Shown: positions 3,615 through 14,269 of the stretch, piece after piece
Layout: the number at the start of each line of letters is the position of its first letter
Numbering within the stretch: position 1 is the stretch's first letter
Origin: an uncultured Acidimicrobiales bacterium
GTDB taxonomy: Bacteria > Actinomycetota > Acidimicrobiia > Acidimicrobiales > CALAML01
DNA length: 64,000 nt
Direction of reading: 5' to 3'
NCBI GenBank assembly: GCA_937925845.1
Contig: CALAML010000011.1
Coordinates: forward strand, 1-64,000
Notes under the pieces: generated by a model
Database searches by the model: none
Seen by the model: the letters and a program-made list of their open reading frames with translations, nothing else
Told to the model about the DNA's origin: nothing
Position numbers and translations under genes: made by a program

Positions 3615-3701
3615 ATCGAACGGGGAGTCTGACGCCGCGGGTTTGGTGGCCCCTAATTGACCGCTCGGTTAGTTTCTAGTTGGGACAACCGAGGGGGAAA
3701 C

Positions 3702-4634
3702 ATGGCATTCGACTACACAGGCAAAACCGCGTTGGTGACTGGTGCGTCATACGGACTCGGCGAGGTCTTTGCTAAGGATCTGGCTGCCTCCGGGGCGGAA
3801 CTGGTGCTTACGGCGCGAAGCAGCGAGCTGCTCGAAACCGTGGCCCAGGCCTGCCGCGAGGCCGGGTCGCCGAAGGTCACCACCGCCACCGGTGATGTGT
3901 CGGTTGAGGCCGACGTGGTGGACGTGGTGGCCAAGGGCATAGAGGCCCATGGCCGAATCGACCTTCTCGTGAACAACGCCGGCGTGGCCGACATGCGCGG
4001 GGTCCCGCCGGAAAAGTTCGACATGGACACCTTCAACTGGATCCTGTCGGTCGACCTCAACGGCGCGTTCATGATGCTGCGCGAATGCGGACGACACATG
4101 TTGGCCAACGGCGGCGGCTCGGTCGTCAACATCTGCTCAATCATGGGCAACGGCGCCAACGAACTCAGCGTCATCCCCTACACCGCCGCCAAGGGCGGCC
4201 TCCGCAACCTCACACTGCAGCTCGGATGTGAATGGGCCGATCGGGGCGTGCGGGTGAACTCGGTCTCCCCGGGCTTCATCCTGACCGACATGATTCGGGC
4301 CGCCGTCGAAGGCACACCCAACGCCGACTACATCGCCAGCCGAACGCCGATGCGCCGGATGGGCGAAGCCCAGGAAGTCTCCAACGCCGTGCTCTTCCTC
4401 GGATCCGACCTGGCCAGCTACATCACCGGGGTCGACCTCAACGTCGACGGCGGCACCAATGCCGGCAACGGCTACTACCAGGTCCAGCCGATCCATCACG
4501 AATGGAACACCGGCGATGCCGCCCTCAGCCCAGGCGCCTACGGCGGCCTCACCGCCCGACCCGAAGGACTCGAAGCCATGGCCGGGGGCATCCCCGGCGT
4601 GCACTACCCACTACCAGAAGCCGGGGGCGAGTGA
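3702..4634 (+). CDS. SDR family oxidoreductase
   Basis: TGASYGLGE nucleotide-binding motif, NNAG, YTAAKGG; start MAFDYTGKTALVTGAS. Confidence 0.9.
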   Translation: MAFDYTGKTALVTGASYGLGEVFAKDLAASGAELVLTARSSELLETVAQACREAGSPKVTTATGDVSVEADVVDVVAKGIEAHGRIDLLVNNAGVADMRGVPPEKFDMDTFNWILSVDLNGAFMMLRECGRHMLANGGGSVVNICSIMGNGANELSVIPYTAAKGGLRNLTLQLGCEWADRGVRVNSVSPGFILTDMIRAAVEGTPNADYIASRTPMRRMGEAQEVSNAVLFLGSDLASYITGVDLNVDGGTNAGNGYYQVQPIHHEWNTGDAALSPGAYGGLTARPEGLEAMAGGIPGVHYPLPEAGGE

Positions 4635-5948: not shown

Positions 5949-7079
5949 ATGGCTCGATCTACGACCGGCTCCGCCACCGCGCGCAAATTCGCCTCTGCGT
6001 GCCTGCTTCTGGCTCTCCTTGGCGCCTCATGTGGTGACAGCTCCGACTCCGCCAGCGACAACGCTGACGAAGCGGTCGCCGCCGAAAGTACAGACGCCGA
6101 TGACCCATCGGATGACGCCAGCACCGACGACTCCGACGATGCCGAATCGGAAGAGTCCGACGAGGACGAGGATGGCAGCGACACCGACGACGAGGCCGAA
6201 GGCGACGACGGCGAAGAGGAAACACCGGTCGAGCCCGAAAGCACCACCGACGACGACGGTGAAGACAGCGACGCCAGCGATGACGGCGGCGACAGTGACG
6301 CAGGTGCCGACGAAGCCGAGACCGACACTGACGGTGGCGACACCCAGGACGATGACGCAGCTGGCGACGAGGCCAGCGATGGTGAAGCTGACACCGACGA
6401 CAGCGACGACCCGGTAGCTGACCCAACCACCACCACCGCGCCCGCCACCACTACCACCGCAGCAGCACCGGCAGCGCCAGCGGAAACCACCACCACAACC
6501 GGAGCCCCGGCAACCACCACCACGGCCGCGCCCGCCACCACAACCACCGCAGCACCAACCACCACCACGACGGCGGCACCCACAACCACCACAACCGCCC
6601 GACCGACCACCACCACCACGACGGCTCGGCCGACAACAACAACCACCACGACCACGGCCCCGGCTCAGCCCAGCGTGCTGAACTTCTCCGCCCCGAAGAT
6701 CGGAGGTGGCACCTTCAACGGAGCCGATGTGAAGGGTGATGTCATCCTCTGGTTCTGGGCCCCCTGGTGACCGATTTGCCGTAACGAAGCCCCTGCGGTC
6801 GCAGAGGCAGCAAGAGAACTCGGCAACGACGTCACCATCATCGGCGTCGGAGGCAACTCCGGAACGAACGAAGACGAGTACGCCGCCTTCGTCAACAGCA
6901 CCGGGGTCGACGGCTTCACCCACATCTTCGACCCGTCCGGTGAAATCTGGCGGAGCTACAGCGTCTTCAGCCAGCCGTCGTGGGCCTTCATCAACGACGA
7001 CGGGGATATCAACACCATCGCCCGCAGCCTGGGCCGCGACACCATCATCGACGAGGCCAACAAGCTCCGTAACAGCTGA
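5949..7079 (+). CDS. Selenocysteine-containing DsbE/Mpt53/TlpA-like thioredoxin lipoprotein (in-frame TGA 6768-6770 read as Sec)
   Basis: Lipobox LLGASC; Asp/Glu-rich then Thr/Pro-rich linker; WFWAPW-[TGA]-PICRNEAPAVAEAARELGNDVTIIGVGG...FSQPSWAFINDDG...KLRNS-TGA. Reading frame stays coding for 102 codons after the TGA. Confidence 0.87.
6789..6808 (+). promoter_or_regulatory. Putative bacterial SECIS hairpin
   Basis: GCC-C-CUGC-GGUC-GCAG-A-GGC; apical loop GGUC starts 27 nt after the TGA; same loop as E. coli fdhF SECIS (GGUC). Confidence 0.72.
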
Positions 7080-8239: not shown

Positions 8240-9433
8240 ATGTTGGCCCTTCAGGTTGAGCGATCCGAACTGCGCTACGCCATGGCCGCGGTGTCTTCGC
8301 GGTTGCGGCCCGGCGCTGGAGCCCGAGTGGGTCCACTCAACCTGGTCGACACCGATCCACCGGAACTTCCGGGCGACGACTGGGTTCACGTGTGGCCCCG
8401 TCTCACCGGTATCTGCGGATCAGATCTGGCCACGGTCGAAGGCCGCTCGTCGAGGTACTTCGAACCGTACGTGAGCTTCCCCTTCACCCCCGGCCACGAG
8501 GTGGTGGGCGAGCTGGCCGATGGCCAGCGGGTGGTGATCGAACCGGTACTGGGCCATGAGGCTCGAGGATTTGAACCGCCGTTCCCGGGAGCGGCACCCG
8601 GCGATGGCGACGACTACCGCCACCTGGTCGGTGGCCCCCTCGAACCCGGCATCCAAACCGGCTTCTGCGCCAGCACCGGAGGCGGCTGGTCGACCCAAAT
8701 GGTGGCCCATCACTCACAGCTCCACCGGATCGACGACTCCATCAGCGACGAAGCGGCGGTGCTGATCGAACCGGTCGCCGGTGGCGTGCACGCCGCTCTG
8801 AAAGGCCGCATCAACGACACCGACGTGGTTGCCGTGCTCGGGGCGGGCACCATGGGCCTGGTCACCGTCGCCGCGGTACGCCAGCTCTGCCCACCCAAAA
8901 CCCTGATCGTTGGCGCCCGCTATCCGGTTCAACGTCGTTTCGCCCAGAGCCTCGGCGCCGACCTCGTCGTCGCCCCTGACGAACTGGCGCGAGCGGTACG
9001 CCGAGCCACCGGCTCCTTCGCCATCGGGTCGGCCCTATCGGGCGGAGCCGATGTTGTGATCGACGCCGTCGGCTCCTCAAGCTCGATCGAGGCGGCGATC
9101 GGCATGTGCCGGCCCCGCGGTCGGGTCGTGCTTTTGGGCATGCCCGGAGCGGTATCACTCGACCTCACCGCCCTCTGGCACCGCGAAACCGAGTTGGTTG
9201 GCGCCTACACCTACGGCACCGAGACCACGCCGTCGGGCGACACCAGCACCAGCTTCGCCCTGGCTCAGCAGATGCTCACCAACGGCGACATCGGCGAGCT
9301 GGTCAGCGCCACCTACCCCCTCAAGCGCTACGCCGACGCCATCGCCCACGCCAGCCAAGCGGGCGGCCGGGGCGCAATAAAGGTGGCCTTCGATCTGCGG
9401 GATGAGCCCAATCGAGGTCTGCCCAAGGCCTGA
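8240..9433 (+). CDS. Zinc-type alcohol dehydrogenase (MDR family)
   Basis: GICGSDLATVEG, PFTPGHEVVGEL, VLGAGTMGLVTVAAVRQL. Confidence 0.88.
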   Translation: MLALQVERSELRYAMAAVSSRLRPGAGARVGPLNLVDTDPPELPGDDWVHVWPRLTGICGSDLATVEGRSSRYFEPYVSFPFTPGHEVVGELADGQRVVIEPVLGHEARGFEPPFPGAAPGDGDDYRHLVGGPLEPGIQTGFCASTGGGWSTQMVAHHSQLHRIDDSISDEAAVLIEPVAGGVHAALKGRINDTDVVAVLGAGTMGLVTVAAVRQLCPPKTLIVGARYPVQRRFAQSLGADLVVAPDELARAVRRATGSFAIGSALSGGADVVIDAVGSSSSIEAAIGMCRPRGRVVLLGMPGAVSLDLTALWHRETELVGAYTYGTETTPSGDTSTSFALAQQMLTNGDIGELVSATYPLKRYADAIAHASQAGGRGAIKVAFDLRDEPNRGLPKA

Positions 9434-9471: not shown

Positions 9472-11031
9472 TTAGGTAAGCAGCAATGCGGCGACCACGC
9501 CGATTACCGCTGCAGCTGTCGCCAACACCACCTGGCCCCGCCAGCCGGCGACCATACTGTCGGGTGCCCGCCGACTGGCACCCACCGGCATCAGACCGCC
9601 ACTACCGGCCCTTGCGTTCAGCTGAACCAACAGCACACCGGCGATAGCGCTGATCGCCACCTTGACGAGGTAGCTACGACCCAAGCCGGTCGAAAGGAGA
9701 TCGCCGAGACCGTCGAGTCGATCCACCAAAGCCACCACACCGGAAAGGGCGAGAACGATCAAGGCCCCACCGGCCATGCGGGCAGCCGACACCATCACCA
9801 GGCCACGCCGCAGCGAACGACCCTTGTCGATGCGCAAGCCACAAACACTCAGCAAGGCCACCCCAACCCCGAGCCACAGCGCCGCCGCCACCTGATGGGC
9901 GGCCAGGGCCAGGTAGGCCAGCGGCCCCCGACTCGACCCGTCCGACGAACTCAGCACCACCATCGAAATCAGCAAGAGTACCGACCCGACAATGGCCACC
10001 GGCACCCGCACCACGTGTAATCGCACCGCATCGCGCGGCGCCAGACTTCGGGGATCGACCCCAGGCTCCAGGAAACTGGTGTCGACCACCGGGTCGATCG
10101 GCTTGGCTGCCTCATAGCTGCCCAACGCCAGGATCAGGCCGCCGAAAGCTCGAAGCACCAGCGCAAAACCGGAAGCGGAAGCCAAGACGTCGGTGAGCAC
10201 ATCCCAATCCAAAGCGGCGCCCACCCGAGCACCGGACCGTACGGACAAGACCAGGATTTCCACCAGCGACACAACGATCAAGAGCAGTCCGAGCCGCCGC
10301 AGCATGATGACCAGCCGGCGCATCTCATCCAGCCCGCCTCGCTGGGCCACCGCCAGAAACACAAAGACGCCCACGGCACTGGCGGCCAATAGCCAGCCAA
10401 GGAAACGGGCGATCGCGGTGACGCCACCATAGGAACGGGTCGGTTCGTCAGCACGGTCGGGAGCTGGAACGGTCGGGGTGACTTCGGGCTGCTGGGGATC
10501 GAACGCAAACGAGGTGAGACCGCTGGCGGTGATATCGCCGTCGCTACGGACCTCCCAGCTCACCTGGTACTCGCCCGCAGCCAGCTCGGACAGGATCAGG
10601 AGTCGCACCGTGGTCCGGGCATTGTCGACGGTGATTCGCACCGGCACTTCCGCACCGGTTGCATCATTCAACGTCGACCCGCTCAACAGCGCGAGGACCG
10701 GCTCGGAGAACTCCAGGCGAACCTCTACGGGCGCGACAGAAACCGTTGTGTTATCCGCCGGTTCAACCTCAAGTAGCTCCGGCGCCTCCGCCTGGGCTGC
10801 GGCGGCCACCGGACCGAGTGTCTTTTGCAGCCACCCCATCGGTGTGCTGGTGGCCCGGAGAGACGCGGCAGGACCCACCATCGTGGGTCCCGTCAGCGAC
10901 ATGGCCAAGGCCACGAGGACCACCAGGGCGATGGTGAAATTCAGCAGTTGCGTTCGACGAAACAGGTGGCCCAGCCTCCAATCCGTCGAGGGTCCGGTCG
11001 GCCGACAGCCTACTCGGCACCCCCGCGCCAC
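9472..11031 (-). CDS. CopC/CopD-domain copper transport or resistance protein
   Basis: CopC-like EVEPADNTTVSVAPVEVRLEFSEPV... followed by multi-TM CopD-like region. Confidence 0.82.
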   Translation of the reverse strand: MARGCRVGCRPTGPSTDWRLGHLFRRTQLLNFTIALVVLVALAMSLTGPTMVGPAASLRATSTPMGWLQKTLGPVAAAAQAEAPELLEVEPADNTTVSVAPVEVRLEFSEPVLALLSGSTLNDATGAEVPVRITVDNARTTVRLLILSELAAGEYQVSWEVRSDGDITASGLTSFAFDPQQPEVTPTVPAPDRADEPTRSYGGVTAIARFLGWLLAASAVGVFVFLAVAQRGGLDEMRRLVIMLRRLGLLLIVVSLVEILVLSVRSGARVGAALDWDVLTDVLASASGFALVLRAFGGLILALGSYEAAKPIDPVVDTSFLEPGVDPRSLAPRDAVRLHVVRVPVAIVGSVLLLISMVVLSSSDGSSRGPLAYLALAAHQVAAALWLGVGVALLSVCGLRIDKGRSLRRGLVMVSAARMAGGALIVLALSGVVALVDRLDGLGDLLSTGLGRSYLVKVAISAIAGVLLVQLNARAGSGGLMPVGASRRAPDSMVAGWRGQVVLATAAAVIGVVAALLLT

Positions 11032-11266: not shown

Positions 11267-11827
11267 ATGAAACGTCCCCTCCAAGCCGCCGCTCTTGCGG
11301 TGGCGCTCTTTACCGCCAGCTGCGGCGGTGGCTCCGGCAGTTCTGAATCGTCGTCGGCCGATGGCCAAACGCCGACCGCACCGGTGGAGGAGGCGGCACC
11401 CGATGAAGCCACCGCAGACTCTCCGCTCACCTTCACCGCAGCAACCGTTGGTGGCGGCCAAATCGACGCCAACTCCCTAGCCGGCCAAGACGTGGTGCTC
11501 TGGTTCTGGGCCCCCTGGTGAGGAACCTGTCGAGCGGAAGCCCCTGCGGTCGCAGAGGTTGCAGAAACACTGGGTGACGACGTCACCATCATCGGCGTAG
11601 GCGGAAAAGGCAGCTCAGCTGGCGACTACACCGACTTCGTTGAGTCCGGCGGAGCCACCAACATTGAGCACGCCATCGACGAGACCGGCGATATCTGGAA
11701 CAGCTTCAACATCACCAGTCAGCCGGCCTGGGTCTTTGTCAACGACGATGGCAAGGTCGAAACCAACATTGGTGCGCTGGGCGAATCGGCGCTCCTTGAC
11801 CGGATCGACAAGCTCAAGAACATCTAG
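11267..11827 (+). CDS. Selenocysteine-containing DsbE/Mpt53/TlpA-like thioredoxin lipoprotein, paralog 2 (in-frame TGA 11519-11521 read as Sec)
   Basis: Lipobox LFTASC; WFWAPW-[TGA]-GTCRAEAPAVAEVAETLGDDVTIIGVGG...TSQPAWVFVNDDG...DKLKNI-TAG; about half-identical to 5949..7079 across the thioredoxin domain. Confidence 0.88.
11540..11559 (+). promoter_or_regulatory. Putative bacterial SECIS hairpin
   Basis: GCC-C-CUGC-GGUC-GCAG-A-GGU, loop at the identical offset from the TGA as in paralog 1; 22-nt identical block gaagcccctgcggtcgcagagg. Confidence 0.72.
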
Positions 11828-12688: not shown

Positions 12689-13399
12689 TCAGGCGCTCTT
12701 CTTGGCAGCTGCCTTCTTTGCAGTGGTCTTGCGAGCCGTGGTCTTCTTGGCCGCAGCCTTGGTGGTCTTTTTGGCCGCAGCCTTTTTGGTGGTGGTCTTC
12801 TTGGCCGCAGCCTTCTTGGTGGTCTTGGCCTTGGTGGAGGCCTTCTTGGCGGTGGTCTTGGCACCGCTCTTGGCCTTGGCCGGCGTAGCCTTGGCGCTCT
12901 TGGCCTTGGCCGAAGCCTTCTTGGCTGTGGTCTTGGCCGCCGGGGTGCCACCAACCAGCTTCGAAGCCAAGCGATGCTGAGCATCAAGTACCGAGCGGGC
13001 CGCACCGAAGCTCTCGTCGACAACCTCAGCCGGGCTGGGAAGCTCGATGGCCGGAAGGCGGTCGGCGGGGACAAGGCCAACGATGCGGGTCCAACTGTCG
13101 TTGATGGTCTCCGAGACCTTCGAGAGGTTCTTGTTCACCGGCTCGGGCACGGCGTCGAGGGCCGAGTCGACGGTGGTGCTGAGCAGCTTCTGCGCATCCT
13201 CAAGGACGGCGGCTACCTCTTCGGTGATCTTGTTGAAGTTCTCAACGAGGGGCTCGGGGATCGAGTCGACCAGCTCTTCGAGCTGGGTCTGAAGGGTCTC
13301 GAGGCGGTTAACCAGCACTGCGGGGAGCACGTCTTTGACGTCGCTCATGGCGTCATCAACTTCGTCCTGGATTCGGTCGAGAATATCGGCGGGGGCCAT
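12689..13399 (-). CDS. HBHA/phasin-like coiled protein with histone H1-like lysine/alanine tail
   Basis: N-terminal MAPADILDRIQDEVDDAMSDVKDVLPAVLVNRLETLQTQLEELVDSIPE; C-terminal repeated AKKTTAKKAAAKK; the longer ORF start at 13564 looks spurious. Confidence 0.72.
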   Translation of the reverse strand: MAPADILDRIQDEVDDAMSDVKDVLPAVLVNRLETLQTQLEELVDSIPEPLVENFNKITEEVAAVLEDAQKLLSTTVDSALDAVPEPVNKNLSKVSETINDSWTRIVGLVPADRLPAIELPSPAEVVDESFGAARSVLDAQHRLASKLVGGTPAAKTTAKKASAKAKSAKATPAKAKSGAKTTAKKASTKAKTTKKAAAKKTTTKKAAAKKTTKAAAKKTTARKTTAKKAAAKKSA

Positions 13400-13636
13400 C
13401 TGGGATCCTTTGGTTTTGGGGGTCTTGGAAGTGGTGTTGGAGATCTGATTGCTTCTTTGCAGTGCTAAGTAAACCAAGCATTGCGAGATTTGCCAAGCCT
13501 TTGTGACCAGAATCACACCCGGTAGCAGCAGCAACCCGGCGGTCGGCGTTGCCTTCCACGGCAATTCTTGACAGACTTAGTCGACTTTATGAACCCCGGA
13601 AAACCGCGGGTTTCAGCCTGCTCAGGGAGAACAGCC

Positions 13637-14269
13637 ATGGCCATCCGCTTGGGAGACACCGCCCCGGACTTCACCGCCGACACCACCGAAGGCACCATCA
13701 CCTTCCACGAATGGAAGCGGGACAGCTGGGCGGTTCTTTTTTCGCACCCGGCCGACTACACACCGGTGTGCACCACCGAGCTGGGCCAGGTCGCCAAAAG
13801 CAAGGCCGACTTCGACGCCCGGGGCGTGAAAGTGATCGGGCTTTCGGTCGACTCCGTTGAAGACCACCAGGGCTGGAGCGCCGATATCGCCGACACCCAG
13901 GGCATCGCACCCAACTTCCCCATGATCGCCGATCCCGACCGCACCGTGGCCGAGCTCTACGACATGATCCACCCGAACGCCGACAACACCCTCACCGTTC
14001 GGTCGGTCTTTGTGGTCGCCCCCGACAACACGGTGAAGCTCACCCTCACCTACCCGGCCAGCACCGGCCGCAACTTCGACGAGATCCTCCGAGTGATCGA
14101 CTCACTCCAGCTAACGGCCAACCACAAGGTGGCCACCCCCGCCAACTGGACCAGCGGCGACAACGTCATCATCGTCCCGGCCCTGTCAGACGAAGAGGCG
14201 AACGAGAAGTTCCCAAATGGCTGGGATGAACAGCGCCCCTACCTCCGGGTCGTCGCCCAACCGAGCTAG
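13637..14269 (+). CDS. 1-Cys peroxiredoxin (Prx6 type)
   Basis: MAIRLGDTAPDFTADTTEG...LFSHPADYTPVCTTELG; Cys codon is TGC/TGT-type, not TGA. Confidence 0.93.
   Translation: MAIRLGDTAPDFTADTTEGTITFHEWKRDSWAVLFSHPADYTPVCTTELGQVAKSKADFDARGVKVIGLSVDSVEDHQGWSADIADTQGIAPNFPMIADPDRTVAELYDMIHPNADNTLTVRSVFVVAPDNTVKLTLTYPASTGRNFDEILRVIDSLQLTANHKVATPANWTSGDNVIIVPALSDEEANEKFPNGWDEQRPYLRVVAQPS

Follow-up and report, generated by a model that had tools for sequence, protein, structure and literature searches.

A probable selenocysteine-containing, DsbF-like exported lipoprotein and its covarying SECIS hairpin in an uncultured Acidimicrobiales bacterium

Introduction

The nearest solved structures to the protein described here, by both sequence and fold, are the Mycobacterium tuberculosis proteins DsbF (Rv1677, 3ios) and DsbE/MPT53 (Rv2878c, 1lu4), which share with it an exported TlpA-type thioredoxin fold. 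These two proteins fold hirudin oxidatively without reducing insulin, and a membrane partner of the DsbD/CcdA type has been proposed for them (PMC3853704). Next in similarity are ResA and the pneumococcal Etrx lipoproteins. Bacillus subtilis ResA and CcmG/TlpA also have this fold, carry cysteine rather than selenocysteine, and have a chemistry that is presumed to depend on CcdA.

Selenoproteins related to these enzymes are not new, because redoxin and Prx-like forms with UxxC and UxxU active sites appear in passages of two published catalogues (PMC9312934, PMC13188914). The pertinent entries are named 'Redoxin family protein (PF08534, UxxC)' and 'Prx-like thiol:disulfide oxidoreductase (PF00578, UxxC/UxxU)', and they share their Pfam families and the UxxC motif with the protein examined here. 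The catalogue passages on these entries do not single out a clade of DsbF-like lipoproteins or its spread through an entire order. Furthermore, we found no paper in the open-access literature on such a clade or on the selenoproteome of this order. Another group of TlpA-like proteins that bears selenocysteine is NF041054 (WAxxUGC, ResA-like), which has UGC where our protein has UxxC.

Here we analyze a stretch of 64,000 nucleotides (the window) from an uncultured Acidimicrobiales bacterium, whose draft genome spans 5.1 Mb in 328 contigs and is 87% complete. A preliminary description of this DNA had proposed that a lipoprotein gene in the window, and a second copy about 4 kb away, use an in-frame TGA as a selenocysteine codon.

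Results and discussion

A gene for a predicted TlpA-type lipoprotein, interrupted by TGA

The gene and the elements discussed with it are as follows.

11267 to 11827, + strand: coding sequence of the DsbF/TlpA-like lipoprotein with a probable selenocysteine, 186 amino acids when UGA is read through, stop codon TAG
11267 to 11323, + strand: predicted signal peptide and lipobox (ALFTASC) with lipidated Cys19, from a match to a PROSITE-like lipobox pattern
11519 to 11521, + strand: in-frame TGA, the probable selenocysteine codon (U85) at the nucleophilic position of UxxC, aligned with Cys in Cys-type homologs
11528 to 11530, + strand: TGT for C88, the resolving cysteine in UGTC; an invariant alignment column
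11540 to 11559, + strand: SECIS hairpin GCC-C-CUGC-[GGUC]-GCAG-A-GGU, identified by covariation, an MFE of -8.5 kcal/mol and bacterial SECIS criteria
5949 to 7079, + strand: sister paralog, a lipoprotein with a UPIC TlpA-like domain; likely start ATG 5949, set by the lipobox; stop TGA 7077-7079
6768 to 6770, + strand: probable selenocysteine TGA of the sister paralog, at the same codon
6789 to 6808, + strand: SECIS hairpin of the sister paralog, core CUGC-GGUC-GCAG, scoring 58.8 bits against the SECIS model
9472 to 11031, - strand: divergent neighbor of CopC/CopD-like type, in which a long hydrophobic stretch comes after a CopC domain

The coordinates and frame given in the preliminary description are correct. 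The translation runs from MKRPLQ to WFWAPW, meets its single in-frame TGA at U85 within WFWAPW-U-GTC, and continues in frame as GTCRAEAPAVAEVAE until it ends at KLKNI with TAG. When the TGA is read through, both window copies exceed the cut-offs of the Redoxin, AhpC-TSA and Thioredoxin Pfam models. These matches, the alignment and an AlphaFold2 model in which most of the domain exceeds a pLDDT of 90 all identify a TlpA-type thioredoxin fold with a W-x-P-W-(C/U)-x-x-C motif. DsbF is matched with an E value of 7.7e-25 by sequence and 1.3e-15 by Foldseek, and the TM scores to DsbF and DsbE are 0.92 and 0.89. The two mycobacterial proteins are about 35% identical to ours in structural alignment and have the same context around the active site (WFWAPW or WFWTPW), but their catalytic residue is cysteine, whereas our protein has a probable selenocysteine and its gene a SECIS hairpin.

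Together with the lipobox at Cys19, which predicts an exported and lipidated protein, these structural matches bear out the earlier assignment to lipoproteins of the thioredoxin type. As to the label 'DsbE-like', the closest solved relatives are the mycobacterial DsbF and DsbE, which behave unlike E. coli DsbE/CcmG in spite of the name. The protein does not reach the curated cut-offs of the DsbE/CcmG models (33.7 of 123 bits for TIGR00385 and 18.4 of 359 bits for NF011941) or that of NF041054 (36.8 versus 300 bits). ResA and CcmG/TlpA are about 27% identical to it, with a TM score of about 0.86 to ResA, and this comparison likewise brings it to no NCBIfam cut-off.

The two copies in the window match at 46-48% of the aligned residues and share the TGA at the same codon (6768-6770 and 11519-11521), as had been noted. 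They were also called independent, which the family tree contradicts by placing them as sister duplicates (support 100/92). The shared TGA was therefore inherited from one ancestor and does not represent two events. As a result, the earlier argument that an error is very unlikely to strike twice at one position reaches a sound verdict, in that comparative data contradict an error, but it counts a single inherited state as two occurrences. In the sister paralog, the lipobox is separated from the catalytic domain by a long acidic stretch and then Thr/Pro/Ala repeat blocks (5949-6680), as if this linker spanned the cell wall.

Conservation of the TGA and of the coding sequence beyond it

A DNA motif search of 198 genomes of the order located 49 occurrences of FWAxW-TGA-xxC, spread over 37 genomes. 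With TAA or TAG in place of TGA, the motif did not occur in these 198 genomes, and a reversed-pattern control for the TGA search also gave no matches. Random nonsense changes or sequencing errors should have given rise to TAA and TAG as well as TGA, and thus the exclusive use of TGA is more than chance. The pair of genes had been regarded as unusual for an actinobacterium. This view does not survive the comparison, since dozens of genomes of the order have homologs with the TGA, and this one has several.

The segment downstream of the TGA behaves as coding sequence. Random in-frame stops beyond the TGA would have spoken against readthrough, and all 51 TGA copies lack one over 180 nt, whereas stops appear within that distance in 28 of 51 copies in frame +1 and in 47 of 51 in frame +2. 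Values of dN/dS after the TGA range from about 0.08 to 0.43 and are below 1 in every close homolog pair tested. The corresponding value for the two window copies is unusable, since their ungapped comparison crosses an indel. The purifying selection evident from dN/dS, a quantity the preliminary description had proposed to check, indicates that the distal half is translated and under constraint.

At exactly this position homologs carry either TGA or a Cys codon, and the Cys that takes the place of Sec is in every case the redox-active one. The choice follows the presence of SelB: the best homolog per genome is a TGA form in 66 of 73 genomes with SelB and a Cys form in 10 of 12 genomes without it (Fisher p = 3.4e-7, a value that ignores relatedness and covers only genomes with a best match listed). 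A scan of genome contigs with the Cys motif FWAPWCxxC gave Cys homologs only, and these joined the Cys comparison set. The closest named Cys-type relatives are from Actinomycetota. On the tree, most Cys forms group in a clade of their own and so do not represent repeated replacement. There is one supported change from Sec to Cys, at L047, which groups among the Sec forms and comes from a genome without SelB (G045); the change is apparently linked to the missing selenocysteine machinery of that genome.

Some relatives have a second TGA as the codon for the resolving cysteine (C88 position) and thus are UxxU forms, as are also found in the catalogued Prx-like family (PF00578) in the passages cited above. 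Three such loci from three genomes (L183, L184 and L185) read WAPW-UPHU or UPFU with two TGA codons, and their products would have selenocysteine at both active-site residues.

A covarying SECIS hairpin follows the TGA

The hairpin downstream of the TGA was not reported in the preliminary description and was found by comparing wobble positions across relatives. In an alignment of 49 distinct TGA forms, ungapped from the TGA, the wobble positions of the codons CCT-GCG-GTC-GCA are almost fixed, whereas adjacent wobble positions vary freely. CCT is scarce among the proline codons of window genes (7 of 124), and GCA is little used for alanine (27 of 304). The upper stem pairs 11544-11547 with 11552-11555 and encloses the apical loop GGUC (11548-11551), which begins 26 nt after the UGA. 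This four-nucleotide loop, the 4-bp upper stem, the 26-nt spacing and the energy of -8.5 kcal/mol agree with the bacterial SECIS constraints set out in the pertinent passages of PMC13188914.

Compensatory changes provide the stronger evidence for this structure. Among the 49 distinct homologs, 87.8% of the stem cells are paired, and both sides of a pair have changed in 22 cells, against a shuffle expectation of 4.1. The observed covariation was reached in 0 of 500 shuffles, and controls in which the structure was slid along the alignment score far lower. Because the structure was picked from these same sequences, some excess over the slid versions is expected, and the changes on both sides carry more weight. 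Numbering from the T of the TGA as 0, pair 25/36 changes from C-G to G-C, G-U or A-U, pair 26/35 from U-A to C-G or G-C, and pair 27/34 from G-C to A-U or U-A. These compensatory changes are partly synonymous. The three UxxU relatives likewise have hairpin stems with compensating A-U pairs.

The hairpin is also missing from the Cys forms compared. The loop is GGTC in 46 of the 49, and all four upper pairs are present in 40 of 49, compared with none of 18 distinct Cys forms. Similarly, a folding energy of -7.5 kcal/mol or lower is attained by 41 of 51 TGA sequences and by 0 of 21 Cys sequences. Folding of single sequences is less informative. The 71 nt around each window TGA give no stability signal relative to shuffles (z of 0.15 and 0.26), and random synonymous recoding equals the local hairpin energy in about 12% of trials. 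The hairpin of any one sequence is thus not exceptionally stable, and the case for a SECIS element rests on conservation and covariation. RNAalifold alone predicts only three pairs, and a search for the best hairpin is unspecific, finding one after a genuine stop codon as well. When a SECIS model was run over the genome, three strong matches were followed by noise, and the C165 paralog was the only credible coding frame among the weak matches.

Decoding of the UGA codon

The genome from which the window derives encodes the components needed to insert selenocysteine. It has a tRNA-Sec with anticodon TCA (UCA), selA beside selB on contig 162 (both above cut-off), and selD above cut-off with its own in-frame TGA within an HGAGUGC motif. 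This machinery lies outside the window, in which ARAGORN found no tRNA and a search at Rfam gathering thresholds returned nothing.

Two other explanations of the TGA must be considered. It is a stop codon under the standard code and the assembly is a draft, so a nonsense mutation, pseudogene or sequencing error might have truncated an ordinary Cys-type thioredoxin lipoprotein. Such a truncation would not account for 49 exact motif matches that have TGA and never TAA or TAG, nor for an open, selected reading frame and a covarying hairpin downstream, and its likelihood is vanishingly small. We also regard as extremely improbable that UGA is decoded as Trp, Cys or another residue, through code reassignment or by a suppressor tRNA, a proposal that would fit the finding of UGA as the only stop at this position. 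UGA still ends ordinary window genes (22-1443, 3657-4634 and 8240-9433) as well as the sister paralog, and therefore the code has not been reassigned. Furthermore, the exchange with redox-active Cys, the full selenocysteine pathway and the association with SelB all oppose decoding as another residue. Given the machinery in the genome, the TGA/Cys exchange that tracks SelB, the covarying SECIS hairpin and the selection beyond the TGA, the UGA at 11519-11521 is almost certainly read as selenocysteine, as was initially suggested for this active site. The product is very probably a genuine selenoprotein of the catalogued UxxC redoxin type, and its family is common in the order rather than an isolated oddity.

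Possible partners and function

Judging from sequence comparisons, the product is very probably an exported thiol:disulfide oxidoreductase that contains selenocysteine. SelB and Sec-tRNA(UCA) would bind the hairpin after the UGA, such that selenocysteine is inserted and translation does not terminate. The resulting lipid-anchored enzyme of the DsbF/DsbE type would present the active site U85-G-T-C88 outside the cell, where the Sec-Cys pair could pass electrons to or from envelope substrates by making and breaking a selenenylsulfide bond. Both the substrates and the direction in which electrons move are inferred.

Recycling of the enzyme probably depends on a CcdA/DsbD-type membrane carrier like that found beside a third paralog on contig 20. 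There, a CcdA-like gene with an LNPC motif (DsbD_TM 28.5 bits, just above cut-off) overlaps the start of the selenocysteine gene. In another genome (G076), a CcdA-like protein 76% identical to that of contig 20 is encoded directly upstream of the orthologous selenocysteine gene. The CcdA-like genes are at L018 (5404-6348, - strand) and L025 (382-1404, + strand), and the 76% identity is between two families of the order. The CcdA-like gene adjoins the contig-20 paralog and not the window copy, and we consider the partnership only somewhat probable for the latter, by analogy with its paralog. Because of these gene arrangements and the DsbD-type partner proposed for M. tuberculosis DsbF/DsbE, a relay from CcdA to Sec-DsbF is our best guess for the mechanism.

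It is also conceivable, if rather less probable, that the selenoprotein acts chiefly as an oxidant, as a selenocysteine version of mycobacterial DsbF/DsbE that makes disulfides in exported proteins instead of a reductant fed by CcdA. Oxidative folding of hirudin without insulin reduction by the mycobacterial proteins (PMC3853704) would fit this role. We also found no VKOR in the genome, and perhaps another oxidant is needed, but this absence is weak evidence in an assembly that is 87% complete. CcdA/DsbD_TM proteins, which are carriers of reductant, are encoded in the operon of the contig-20 paralog, and this arrangement counts against a mainly oxidative role. Selenium usually lowers the redox potential, which favors reductive or peroxide-reducing chemistry. 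A main role in the maturation of metal centers or cytochrome oxidase could be imagined from the adjoining CopC-domain gene (9472-11031). We judge this unlikely, given that the two genes are divergently transcribed and that no copper-related family is among those recurring in the genes that flank homologs. The 1.5-kb flanks of the homologs hold no common partner family; FAD/pyridine-nucleotide oxidoreductases do recur, accounting for up to 6 of the 65 proteins encoded there.

Two other nearby genes deserve mention. An ordinary Cys-type AhpC/TSA peroxiredoxin without TGA (13652-14038, + strand) lies less than 2 kb from the selenocysteine gene. Between them, an ORF on the - strand (12689-13564) has an end that is very rich in Lys, Ala and Thr with AAKKT-like repeats, and perhaps its product is histone-like or phasin-like.

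An apparently selenoprotein-rich genome

In a first search of the genome, an in-frame TGA was present in five TlpA-like genes. More broadly, 12 of the 22 matches to the AhpC/TSA superfamily in this genome (G000) carry one in-frame TGA, and each of the 12, read individually, lies within a plausible redox motif. These motifs include TPGUTKQSC, AVWUPPC, HIHULPC, GDWUPYC and three UGC forms, and the loci include L219, L221, L224, L225, L227, L230, L234, L235, L236 and L238. Apparent members of NF041054 are present on contigs 47, 68 and 260. These data suggest about 13 selenoprotein genes, comprising about 12 of redox families plus selD, where SECIS covariation applies to the three WAPWUxxC genes and the others are judged by motif position only. 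Because the threshold for a selenoprotein-rich genome has been set at six (PMC5029168), this genome is apparently selenoprotein-rich.

It is tempting to speculate that these genes form a selenium-based redox network of the envelope, in which a CcdA-type carrier feeds or drains several duplicated Sec-DsbF lipoproteins, with a near-fixed GGUC SECIS element in the WAPWUxxC genes of a selenoprotein-rich genome. Such a network might partly replace VKOR/DsbA, but we consider this larger scheme doubtful at present.

Biological implications

The points of interest in this family are its clean SECIS covariation, its likely extracytoplasmic role and the apparent abundance of selenoproteins in the genome, which lies outside the classic selenoprotein-rich groups, namely Deltaproteobacteria, Clostridia and Synergistetes (PMC5029168). 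The gene set provides a clean comparative alignment of a SECIS element, and its natural series of Sec, Cys and UxxU forms offers tests of the reasons for using selenium outside the cell. Genes of this type are readily mis-annotated as truncated, and thus exported selenoenzymes of a large bacterial order are likely to be hidden in the databases.
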